Shown: positions 52,211 to 59,478 of the stretch, piece after piece
Layout of the letters: every line of letters begins with the position of its first letter
Numbering within the stretch: the stretch's first letter is position 1
Assembly: GCF_900187375.1 (NCBI RefSeq)
Contig: NZ_FYEW01000001.1
Location: 1,240,001-1,304,000, forward strand
Source of the DNA: Hymenobacter gelipurpurascens
GTDB taxonomy: Bacteria > Bacteroidota > Bacteroidia > Cytophagales > Hymenobacteraceae
Length of the DNA: 64,000 bases
Reading direction: 5' to 3'
The notes under the pieces: generated by a model
Told to the model about the DNA's origin: nothing
Database searches by the model: none
What the model saw: the letters and a program-made list of their open reading frames with translations, nothing else
Translations under genes and position numbers: made by a program

Positions 52211-53701
52211 ATGCGCCGCCTCTCTCCACTCCTGCTTTCCGGCCTGCTGCTTAGCCTGACCACATTCGGCTGCTCGCAGAATGCTCCCGAAACCGCCAAC
52301 AGAACGTCTCCCATCGATAACAGGCCGCCGGCTATTCCGGTGGAATCGGGCGCCACAAGGCAGCAGAGCCCCGGCCGCTTCCCCGAAACGTTTGAAGGGG
52401 CAGAAAAAGGCGCCTACAGCACCGCCGACGAGAGCCTTACTTCCGGCTCCTGGCATTTTGAGGATGCCCTGATTGGGTCTTCCGACCAGGACCACAAGAA
52501 CGGCCAGCACGCGGCCCGCCTGCGCGGCCAGGGCCGATTACGCATGAATTTTGATGCGCCCAGCGGCGTGAGCACCATCCGGGTAACCAGCGCCAGCTAC
52601 GGCGACGACCCGGCCAGCACCTGGGAACTGTGGGGCAGCCTAGATGGCGGGCGCACCTACCGGCGCATCGGGCAGCCCGTGAGAGCGCAAGGTCCCAGGC
52701 TAACCGTCACGACGTTTCAGGGCGGCGCGGCTGGCACACTGCGCCTCGAAATCCGGAAAACCGATGGCGGTAAGGGCCGGCTGAACATTGATGACATCGC
52801 CCTGCTGGCAGCCAATGGGGCAGCCATTTCGGGCGGCTCGGTGGCTTCGGGTTCCAGCAGTACCGCGGGCTCCGGCTCCGCTCCTTCCGCTTCCAGTCTG
52901 CCCCCGGCTACCACGGCACAGGCCGAGGCCATTGTGTCGGGACGCGATGATAACATGGCGCTTGGCAACCCCAGCGGCGCCACTGCTGATGTCAACAACG
53001 CCACCAACTATCTGCTGGTGAAGCCGCAGTTTACCATTGGTTACAATGCCCAGCGCGGCACGCCTACCTGGGTGAGCTGGCACCTCAACCGGGCCTGGAT
53101 GGGCTCAGCACCTCGCCAGGATGATTTTCGTCCTGATCCGGCCCTGCCTCGTCAGTTCTATCAGGTAACGCGTAACTCCTACTCGGGCTCCGGCTTCGAT
53201 AAAGGCCACAACTGCCCTAGCGCCGACCGCACCACCGACCTCGACGATAACTCGGCTACCTTCCTGATGACCAACATGATTCCGCAGGCCGGCAACAACA
53301 ACCAGCGCACCTGGAGTGGCCTAGAGGAATGGACGCGCGCTCAGGTGAAGCAGGGCCAGGAAGTGTACGTGCTCATGGGCAGCTACGGCAAAGGCGGCAC
53401 CGGCCAGAACGGCCGCTTCACCACCATCGACCAGGGCCGCGTGACCGTGCCAGCCCGCGTCTGGAAGGTGCTCGTGATTCTGCCAGAAGGCTCCAACGAC
53501 CTCCAGCGCATTGCCGCCGGCCAGGCCCGCATCATCGCCGTAGACACGCCCAATGACCAGTCCGTAAGCCCCAACTGGAGCCAGTACCGCGTAAGCATAG
53601 ATGCCATTGAGGCGGCAAGTGGCCTAGACCTGCTCAGCAAGCTCCCGCTGCCTGTGCAAGACAAGCTTGAGCCCTTGATAGACGCTGGCCCGGTACGCTA
53701 G
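52211..53701 (+). CDS. Secreted DNA/RNA non-specific endonuclease (NUC1/NucA family) lipoprotein
   Basis: A 496-residue lipoprotein from ATG 52211: signal peptide and lipobox TTFGC (Cys 21). Residues 50-220 form a beta-rich domain with an immunoglobulin/CBM look (GTLRLEIRKTDGGKGRLNIDDIALL), then a Ser/Gly/Ala-rich linker. The nuclease domain covers about 270-480: WVSWHLN, DKGHNCPSADRTTDLDDNSATFLMTNMIPQ carry the catalytic DRGH-type motif (here DKGH) and the Asn/metal positions. It degrades DNA and RNA outside the cytosol with Mg2+ or Mn2+. A nuclease-A-inhibitor-type domain is encoded 4.2 kb downstream. Confidence 0.9.
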   Translation: MRRLSPLLLSGLLLSLTTFGCSQNAPETANRTSPIDNRPPAIPVESGATRQQSPGRFPETFEGAEKGAYSTADESLTSGSWHFEDALIGSSDQDHKNGQHAARLRGQGRLRMNFDAPSGVSTIRVTSASYGDDPASTWELWGSLDGGRTYRRIGQPVRAQGPRLTVTTFQGGAAGTLRLEIRKTDGGKGRLNIDDIALLAANGAAISGGSVASGSSSTAGSGSAPSASSLPPATTAQAEAIVSGRDDNMALGNPSGATADVNNATNYLLVKPQFTIGYNAQRGTPTWVSWHLNRAWMGSAPRQDDFRPDPALPRQFYQVTRNSYSGSGFDKGHNCPSADRTTDLDDNSATFLMTNMIPQAGNNNQRTWSGLEEWTRAQVKQGQEVYVLMGSYGKGGTGQNGRFTTIDQGRVTVPARVWKVLVILPEGSNDLQRIAAGQARIIAVDTPNDQSVSPNWSQYRVSIDAIEAASGLDLLSKLPLPVQDKLEPLIDAGPVR

Positions 53702-57854: not shown

Positions 57855-58742
57855 CTAGGTTTCCGTCAGCACGGTCTTGAAGCCGGCCAGTTGACCATCG
57901 TCGGTTTTGCCGAGGGCCAGCACCGGCACTTGTGGGCCGCTGCCAAAGCGGTACACCTGCACATCCTGCAGCTCCTGCTTCAAAAACATCTGGAGGGCTT
58001 TGAAGCGGTTGGCTAAGGTCGGGTTGCCGAGCACGCCGTTATCGGCGGTATGGTTGCGCAGGAAGTAGGTCAGCTCCTGCTTTTCTACTTTCCTGTCGGC
58101 GGGGGCACCGGCCAGCTTCGCCAGAGCCTCATCGGTGAGTGAGCCGCCGGGCGCCGCAAACTGCACCGGCTCCAGCGGCGCATCCGATTCGCTCATGTAA
58201 AACAGGTCCTTCGTGAGCTGCTGTAACTGGCCTAGCACGGCGTTCTGGCCCGGCCCAGCAGTTGCAGCGGCTGTAGGCTCGTTGGTAGGCTGAGTTTCGC
58301 GGCTGCCTTTGCTTTCCAGTGGTTTCACCTCGGGAGCAGCAGTACCGCCGGGCACCTGGGCGCTAATGGCAGCGGCTAGTTCCTTCATGCGCGTTTCGGC
58401 TACTTTAATCTTGGGGTTGGCGAAGTTCATGTCTGAGACATTATTCATCGGAATAAGATGAATATGCGCGTGCGGCACCTCTAGGCCTATCACGGCCACT
58501 CCAATGCGCTTGCACGTTACGGCCGCTTTCACGCCCTTGGCTACGCGCTGGGCAAACTGGTGCAGGGCGGCCAGCTCCGCCGGGGGCAAATCAAAAATGT
58601 AGTCAACTTCCTTCCTCGGAATCACTAGCGTGTGGCCTTCTACCAGCGGCGTGATGTCGAGAAAAGCCAAATGGTGCTCGTCTTCCGCCACTTTAAAGGC
58701 GGGCAGCTCGCCGGAAACGATGCGGGAGAAGATAGATGGCAT
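57855..58742 (-). CDS. HIT-family hydrolase fused to a nuclease A inhibitor (NuiA)-like domain
   Basis: A 295-residue protein from ATG 58742. Residues 1-125 are a complete HIT domain: SIFSRIVSGELPAFKVAED, LVIPRKEVDYIFDL and the triad HAHIHLI at 91-97 (H91, H93, H95), which cleaves nucleotide phosphoanhydrides or phosphoramidates. A Glu/Pro/Thr/Ala-rich linker (126-165) follows. Residues 167-295 match the cyanobacterial NuiA inhibitor: LFYMSESDAPLEPV with E185 where NuiA has E24, DVQVYRFGSGP and LALGKTDDGQLAGFKT, and the chain ends ...TET, as NuiA ends ...VET, whose last Thr sits in the nuclease active site. A NuiA-target-type nuclease is encoded at 52211. The protein has no signal peptide. 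Confidence 0.85.
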   Translation of the reverse strand: MPSIFSRIVSGELPAFKVAEDEHHLAFLDITPLVEGHTLVIPRKEVDYIFDLPPAELAALHQFAQRVAKGVKAAVTCKRIGVAVIGLEVPHAHIHLIPMNNVSDMNFANPKIKVAETRMKELAAAISAQVPGGTAAPEVKPLESKGSRETQPTNEPTAAATAGPGQNAVLGQLQQLTKDLFYMSESDAPLEPVQFAAPGGSLTDEALAKLAGAPADRKVEKQELTYFLRNHTADNGVLGNPTLANRFKALQMFLKQELQDVQVYRFGSGPQVPVLALGKTDDGQLAGFKTVLTET

Positions 58743-58832
58743 GAGGTGAAGTGGTGAGATGGTGAGTTCGACGTGCTGCTTGCGCTGTCTGCGCACGCTG
58801 CGTGGGCGCTCCAAAGTACGAGGCAAAACGCA

Positions 58833-58861
58833 AAAGGGCGAAGCCGCCGGCTTCGCCCTTT
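58833..58861 (-). terminator. Intrinsic terminator behind greA
   Basis: AAAGGGCGAAG and CTTCGCCCTTT form a perfect stem around CCGCCGG; on the minus strand T4 follows. It lies between greA and the HIT-NuiA gene. Confidence 0.8.
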
Positions 58862-58921
58862 CATAGAAAAGAAGTCCAGTGAAACGATCAACTCATCATT
58901 TCACACTTCAAAAGTTCGCCT

Positions 58922-59395
58922 CTACCGGCTGATTTCCAGGATTTCGAACTGCAGCTTGCCGGCCGGAACGGTAATTTCGGCGGTGTCGCCGGCCGATAAG
59001 CCCAACAGACCCTTGCCAATCGGCGACTTCACCGAGATTTTGCCGGCGGCCAGATTGGCTTCCTCTTCTGCCACCAGGGTGTAGTCGAGGATCATATTAT
59101 TCTTTAGGTTTTTCAACTTCACCTTGCTCATAATGAGCACCTTGGTGAGGTCTAGGTTCGTCTCGTCGAGCACGCGGGCATTCCCCACGATTTCTTCCAG
59201 TTTAGAAATCTTGAGTTCGAGCAACCCCTGGGCTTCCTTGGCCGCGTCGTACTCCGCATTTTCGCTCAGGTCGCCTTTATCGCGGGCTTCGCGCAGATCC
59301 TCGGCAGCCTTGGCGCGGCCGCGGATTTTGAGGTCCTGCAGCTCATCCTTCAGCTTCTGAAGACCTTCCGGAGTGTAGTAGTTGATAGTAGACAT
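58922..59395 (-). CDS. greA: Transcription elongation factor GreA
   Basis: A 157-residue cytosolic protein. The N-terminal coiled coil (YYTPEGLQKLKDELQDLKIRGRAKAAEDLREARDKGDLSENAEYDAAKEAQGLLELKI) includes the DLSENAEYDAA tip with the acidic residues (D and E) that stimulate RNA cleavage in the secondary channel of RNA polymerase; the C-terminal FKBP-like half has SPIGKGLLGLSAGDTAEITVPAG. It rescues backtracked polymerase. Its leader holds a terminator-like hairpin just behind the promoter, described separately. Confidence 0.97.
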   Translation of the reverse strand: MSTINYYTPEGLQKLKDELQDLKIRGRAKAAEDLREARDKGDLSENAEYDAAKEAQGLLELKISKLEEIVGNARVLDETNLDLTKVLIMSKVKLKNLKNNMILDYTLVAEEEANLAAGKISVKSPIGKGLLGLSAGDTAEITVPAGKLQFEILEISR

Positions 59396-59424: not shown

Positions 59425-59478
59425 GGAGAACGGCCAGCATGGCTGGCCGTTCTCCCCGAACAGGTTTAGGCAAATATA
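59425..59478 (-). promoter_or_regulatory. greA promoter box and terminator-like leader hairpin
   Basis: On the minus strand TATATTTG (59478-59471) matches the Bacteroidota -7 box. About 15 bases after it starts a 14-base perfect hairpin, GGAGAACGGCCAGC / GCTGGCCGTTCTCC with a 3-base loop (59455-59425), followed by TTGTTTTTT. The greA start codon is 30 bases further. This has the form of a leader attenuator. Confidence 0.7.

Follow-up and report, generated by a model that had tools for sequence, protein, structure and literature searches.

Why would a small hydrolase of the histidine triad (HIT) superfamily carry a nuclease inhibitor at its C-terminus? The question is raised by a gene of Hymenobacter gelipurpurascens that lies on the minus strand at positions 57855 to 58742 of a 64,000 nucleotide stretch of DNA (contig NZ_FYEW01000001.1 of assembly GCF_900187375.1, positions 1,240,001 to 1,304,000), referred to in what follows as the window. 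HIT enzymes are nearly universal, although it is unclear what many of those in bacteria do. Our answer starts from what is observed of the HIT-NuiA protein, namely its architecture, fold, conservation, single copy, linkage and tree position, and leads to what we consider a probable explanation: a cytosolic two-domain self-protection protein whose C-terminal NuiA domain would block the cell's own NUC1-type nuclease. The fusion itself is real, genus-wide and recurrent.

Two domains in one reading frame

The gene is an uninterrupted single frame of 295 codons plus stop with an ATG start at 58742, and its product divides into a HIT domain (residues 1-130, 58353-58742), a flexible linker (131-166, 58245-58352) and a NuiA domain (167-295, 57858-58244). 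In profile searches PF01230 matches residues 11-100 with E 8.4e-20, and the histidine triad HAHIHLI claimed for residues 91-97 (58452-58472) by the first-pass annotation, with HxHxH at 91-95, is present and intact, placing the N-terminal domain in the HIT superfamily by both triad and fold. The C-terminal domain was likewise correctly called a complete NuiA domain: PF07924 covers residues 169-295 (profile positions 3-130 of 130) with E 2.6e-34 and a score of 118.8 bits against a curated cut-off of 22.1, and a search of PDB sequences returns NuiA chains 2o3b_B (9.4e-9) and 1j57_A (1.1e-8); the NuiA fold is found here too. Two NuiA residues, E24 and the C-terminal T135, are inserted into the active site of the nuclease NucA in what we take to be the geometry of the NucA-NuiA complex; the alignment with the PDB sequences pairs them with E185 (58188-58190) and with the last residue, T295 (57858-57860), the same pairing as originally proposed.

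These features are strongly conserved. Among 75 aligned fused proteins (75 of the 98 of at least 270 amino acids, drawn from the best 120 of 420 database matches) H91, H93 and H95 are invariant, T295 is found in all 75 and E185 is Glu in 74, while the HxHxH triad and the C-terminal Thr are retained in all 98. The linker is a different matter, with pLDDT (predicted local distance difference test) values of 31-60 in blocks over residues 131-170 of the single-chain structure model and with a length of 22-51 amino acids among relatives for the stretch equivalent to residues 128-168. Within this otherwise variable stretch a K-G-x-R-E-T-like motif (K145-T150, 58293-58310) is conserved, with Lys in 63 of the 75 aligned proteins, Gly in 45, Arg in 60, Glu in 61 and Thr in 58. 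The HIT part is complete, as the stops of unfused relatives coincide with the start of the linker. Over 24 genomes the mean distance is 0.133 for HIT, 0.124 for GreA and 0.432 for NuiA, a roughly threefold faster divergence of the inhibitor domain; since HIT diverges about as slowly as GreA, its catalysis is probably still required in the fusion protein.

The fused arrangement characterizes two genera. NuiA is found in 147 of the 150 genomes of our Hymenobacteraceae family sample, and every sampled genome of the window's genus (66/66; Hymenobacter by its protein names) and of a second genus, g5 (8/8), has one NuiA match, its sole one, in a frame of at least 274 amino acids; HIT sits in a frame of equal length at the identical place in all 74 (the NuiA frames of G053, G059, G084 and G100 come from supplementary scans, the others from the family scan). 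In the 76 genomes of the four other genera of the family the best HIT match always lies in a frame of 131-199 amino acids, and the NuiA frames among the matches listed are all of 219 amino acids or less. Of the fused proteins that carry a source name in the best 120 of 420 database matches, nearly all are assigned to Hymenobacter, and one is named Microvirga. A frameshift in other strains, which the first-pass annotation would have taken as a sign that the two parts are normally separate genes, is absent from all 74 genomes of the two genera, and the in-frame fusion in them likewise rules out a chimera or an assembly error.

The protein database also holds short NuiA entries, and of the 19 examined 17 (P0005, P0016, P0038 and others) start at a Met located within the final HIT helix. 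It might be asked whether the two domains are made separately from an internal start at this residue, Met119, exactly where these 17 entries begin. We judge this very improbable, since in all three species with both kinds of entry the long protein ends in the complete short one, the HIT half of the short entries having thus been lost through annotation, and since four of five distinct unfused HIT proteins carry a Met at the equivalent spot, where it is probably structural (11 loci were inspected, of which six gave a row and two rows were the same gene).

Fusions of separate origin

A search for HIT-NuiA fusions across Bacteroidota finds, besides the 74 genomes of the two Hymenobacteraceae genera, a separate case in Chlorobi. 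A phylum-wide sample of 395 genomes has NuiA in 23, and in a single Chlorobi genus the frames are long. They (L163, L164 and L166) encode HIT-NuiA proteins of about 300 amino acids, L164 being identical to L182, a protein of Candidatus Thermochlorobacter aerophilum, and proteins of this type are found in five database clusters (P0122-P0126). Their HIT part is of the diadenosine tetraphosphate (Ap4A) phosphorylase kind (6af2, 3ano), the ATP adenylyltransferase model scoring below its cut-off. In a genome of a neighbouring genus, G524 (L165:1498-2477, minus strand), separate genes for an Ap4A-type HIT protein and for NuiA overlap by 4 bp, ATGA, and the unfused HIT protein is 76% identical to the fused Chlorobi HIT; such an overlap is a likely intermediate on the way to fusion. 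Overall, NuiA is present in eight of nine genomes of this Chlorobi family, fused in three, overlapping in one and without a HIT gene found nearby in four, and all eight encode a nuclease elsewhere.

In the NuiA tree the Hymenobacter fusions form a group (support 1.0) within the standalone NuiA of their own family (next node 0.81), and the Chlorobi fusions form one (0.97) within Chlorobi NuiA (0.82). The tree has 114 tips and is thinned to about one sixth of the rows of the fused-protein alignment and one quarter of the cyanobacterial rows; its four fused Chlorobi rows are three proteins. Apart from both lies a third fusion, a chorismate synthase of 499 amino acids with a C-terminal NuiA domain (G287, L037:1498-2997, minus strand), the single protein of its kind in the database search, from a fragmented genome. 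The fusions lie apart in the NuiA tree, so that NuiA was grafted onto the C-terminus of another protein at least three separate times, twice with a HIT host. A common origin of the two HIT-NuiA fusions is ruled out by the different NuiA clades, by the differing nearest relatives of the HIT parts, and by the unfused HIT proteins of each kind in related genera.

The probable partner nuclease and the case for self-protection

What, then, would the inhibitor inhibit? The first-pass annotation had pointed to a nuclease starting at 52211, and this gene (52211-53701, plus strand, convergent with the fusion gene) is real, matching the Endonuclease_NS family PF01223 with E 7.6e-47. Relative to the D-R-G-H catalytic motif it retains the His and has Lys in place of Arg (D-K-G-H), D-[RK]-G-H being found in all 23 linked nucleases analyzed. 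A lipobox-like N-terminus is recognized by pattern in 17 of these 23 and by eye in four more, including that of the window. The choice of partner is supported because a long nuclease frame is linked, in convergent orientation, to the HIT-NuiA gene in all 24 fused genomes examined (the 23 and G100), at spacings of 639 to 10259 bp and with varying intervening genes. Linkage was counted with an all-frames test; some nuclease, HIT-NuiA and greA genes are hidden by longer spurious frames in the gene maps. The 23 linked nucleases form one clade with support 1.0 in a midpoint-rooted FastTree phylogeny of 75 non-redundant domains of at least 170 amino acids. The structure model of the window nuclease is poor (mean pLDDT 51.7), and only residues 70-200, mostly in beta strands, attain block means of 72-87; its N-terminal ~250 amino acids (52211-52960, plus strand) are without a Pfam family match. 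A PADLOC search gave no match for the nuclease and otherwise only a weak one to ThsC (HIT family, E 4.8e-4).

The association extends to NuiA in general. Standalone NuiA genes make up 22 of the 31 best-scoring loci of the family. At 17 of the 22 an Endonuclease_NS gene stands no more than 1.5 kb away, either convergent or pointing the same way, and in one case it is split over two frames. In a GTDB-wide scan of 80 loci (the best 80 of 181, 74 of them cyanobacterial by title) a nuclease lies in the fetched flank in 68, convergent in 67 of the 68. Among 291 genomes of the order NuiA occurs in 100 and the nuclease in 182, the latter in 98 of the 100 genomes with NuiA and in 84 of the 191 without it (Fisher 1.6e-23, a value that overstates the association because the genomes are related). 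All 17 NuiA-bearing genomes checked outside the family encode the nuclease, and in the three NuiA-less genomes of the family (G007, G032 and G063) it was not detectable.

No export signal is seen by eye in the NuiA part, the only NuiA match of the genome, and one is seen in the nuclease. The simplest mechanism would be self-protection. The fusion protein, in which inspection by eye reveals no signal peptide, would be cytosolic, and its NuiA domain would cap secreted DNA/RNA nuclease that folds before, or instead of, export. The main target would be the convergent lipoprotein-like nuclease at 52211-53701, with E185 and the C-terminal T295 placed in its active site as in NuiA bound to NucA. Anabaena NuiA is described as competing with substrate for NucA (PMC5758888). 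At the N-terminus a complete and conserved HIT hydrolase, presumably still catalytic, would occupy its ancestral position after greA. By the most likely route a convergent nuclease/nuiA pair came to sit just downstream of the HIT gene, whereupon the HIT stop would have been lost and the frames merged in an ancestor of the two genera. Joining may have brought a steady supply of a dimeric inhibitor.

Several observations weigh against this account. Fused genomes contain one to six nuclease matches (five NUC1-type matches in this genome), so that the target is uncertain. No nuclease was found within 1.5 kb at five of the 22 standalone loci or, at the Chlorobi NuiA loci, in the fetched flanks (~5 kb for the fusions). 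Two of the 100 NuiA-bearing genomes of the order (G258 and G334), as well as G046, have no detected nuclease, and 84 NuiA-less genomes of the order have one, which implies that the inhibitor is not always needed. Mirror-tree partial correlations are not specific, with 0.452 for NuiA-nuclease (permutation p 0.0002) and 0.448 for HIT-nuclease; because HIT correlates almost as well, we set aside the coevolution of NuiA and nuclease as evidence. Finally, there is the Trp W76, which we take to be a NucA-contacting residue of NuiA and for which the fusion protein, as noticed at the outset, has no match. Trp fills this position in 77 of 78 standalone rows GTDB-wide, in 22 of the 24 rows of the order (L060, one of the two exceptions, is a fused Hymenobacter protein) and in the fused Chlorobi proteins (four rows, three distinct). 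In Hymenobacteraceae it is absent, both from the 22 standalone rows and from the 84 fused ones. As the standalone NuiA of the family also do without it, the loss looks older than the fusion. That Trp loss marks a degenerate NuiA is unsupported, the standalone relatives without Trp lying beside a nuclease in 17 of 22 cases.

Could the NuiA domain have ceased to inhibit the resident nuclease, serving instead in immunity to nucleases of other bacteria or in some other role? The loss of W76 would fit, as would G046, which keeps NuiA without a NUC1 nuclease, and four loci of one genus (L143, L147, L150 and L155) that keep NuiA with no adjoining nuclease where their relative L149 has one. We nevertheless think it unlikely, given that E185 and T295 are conserved and that the linked nuclease is kept in 24 of 24 fused genomes despite differing intervening genes. 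The NuiA gene of L150, which is from G046, occupies a place common to its relatives.

Two further proposals, each compatible with self-protection, concern why HIT became the carrier. Gene order may have brought the fusion about by accident, with a neutral or mildly useful outcome; NuiA would then have gained just constitutive cytosolic expression, and any housekeeping host would have served. We put this at even chances. The chorismate synthase fusion speaks for it, as does a HIT domain conserved nearly like GreA alongside a NuiA domain that diverges about three times faster, yet the chorismate synthase case is one protein in the database search, and two of the three independent fusions used the HIT superfamily. 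As there are few HIT genes among the thousands of each genome, the same choice made twice is improbable by chance, and by this rough, after-the-fact reasoning pure chance alone is unlikely; short, abundant, cytosolic proteins may be favored as graft hosts. Alternatively HIT and NuiA may serve one process, for example through a HIT part that clears or senses some nucleotide product, or else some adenylylated protein, linked to nuclease stress, or through a dimeric HIT that forms a bivalent nuclease clamp. We hold this coupling to be possible but somewhat doubtful. Two independent fusions from two HIT branches, HIT and nuiA genes that overlap in yet another genus and a precedent for a HIT-type immunity enzyme, MccH (PMC7157772), favor it; against it, NuiA is also fused to chorismate synthase, and among the best 80 of 181 loci GTDB-wide a HIT gene lies in the fetched flank only at the Thermochlorobacter fusion itself. 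Because the joining arose at least twice with different HIT enzymes, a link between the two jobs is hinted at. We would venture, quite tentatively, that HIT enzymes and NuiA belong to one pathway of self-protection against the cell's own NUC1 nuclease and were joined twice, in Chlorobi perhaps via an overlapping pair. The HIT half would then either deal with a nucleotide signal of nuclease stress, or an adduct resulting from it, or dimerize the inhibitor, with mutual regulation of nuclease binding and HIT catalysis.

Genomic setting and relation to known systems

Upstream of the HIT-NuiA gene lies greA (58922-59395, minus strand, PF03449/PF01272). It adjoins HIT-NuiA in all 10 short fused loci and the unfused HIT gene in three of four loci of other genera, greA being called in the fourth and HIT not. 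A shared operon is not certain because a terminator-like hairpin (58831-58863, minus strand), a 15-pair stem followed by a T-rich tail, stands between the genes; terminator-like sites in the region number 4 against 2.7 expected, so that the hairpin is weak evidence. Upstream of greA is a -7-like TATATTTG (59471-59478, minus strand), a motif that we assume to be a Bacteroidota promoter element and whose 17 matches in the window are at chance level.

The first-pass annotation had also supposed that the fusion was either undescribed or merely unnoticed. An open-access full-text search, judged by titles and the beginnings of abstracts, found no paper on it; the protein database already annotates both domains on HIT-NuiA proteins. 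NuiA, HIT and NUC1 are known; what is new is the second, independent fusion in Candidatus Thermochlorobacter (Chlorobi). Two HIT fusions to one inhibitor family, together with the overlapping pair, offer a testable role for HIT, protection from the cell's own exported nuclease. More generally, the case shows how an inhibitor encoded by a single gene next to its target can become a domain within a housekeeping protein and still be linked to that target across a genus.

A HIT-family enzyme joined to an unrelated domain is also found in Nit-Fhit (PDB 1ems), a fusion that has been read as pointing to a common function; there the partner is a nitrilase-like domain rather than an inhibitor. MccH resembles the present protein as a HIT hydrolase in self-protection, namely microcin C immunity, and differs in that its substrate is a peptide-nucleotide antibiotic, the section consulted making no mention of an inhibitor domain (PMC7157772). 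With HIT proteins of the 7mqw/3p0t type the fusion protein shares a full-length HIT fold and the HxHxH triad, and with its unfused HIT relatives the place after greA; unlike the former, it adds a linker and NuiA. The Thermochlorobacter proteins (L163, L164 = L182, L166; P0122-P0126) likewise have HIT at the N-terminus and NuiA at the C-terminus, but are of separate origin, with an Ap4A phosphorylase-like HIT (3ano/6af2), W76 kept and no nuclease within ~5 kb. Anabaena NuiA (PDB 2o3b, 1j57), in turn, stands alone as a protein of some 135 amino acids, whereas here NuiA, without W76, follows a HIT domain as the C-terminal half of the chain.
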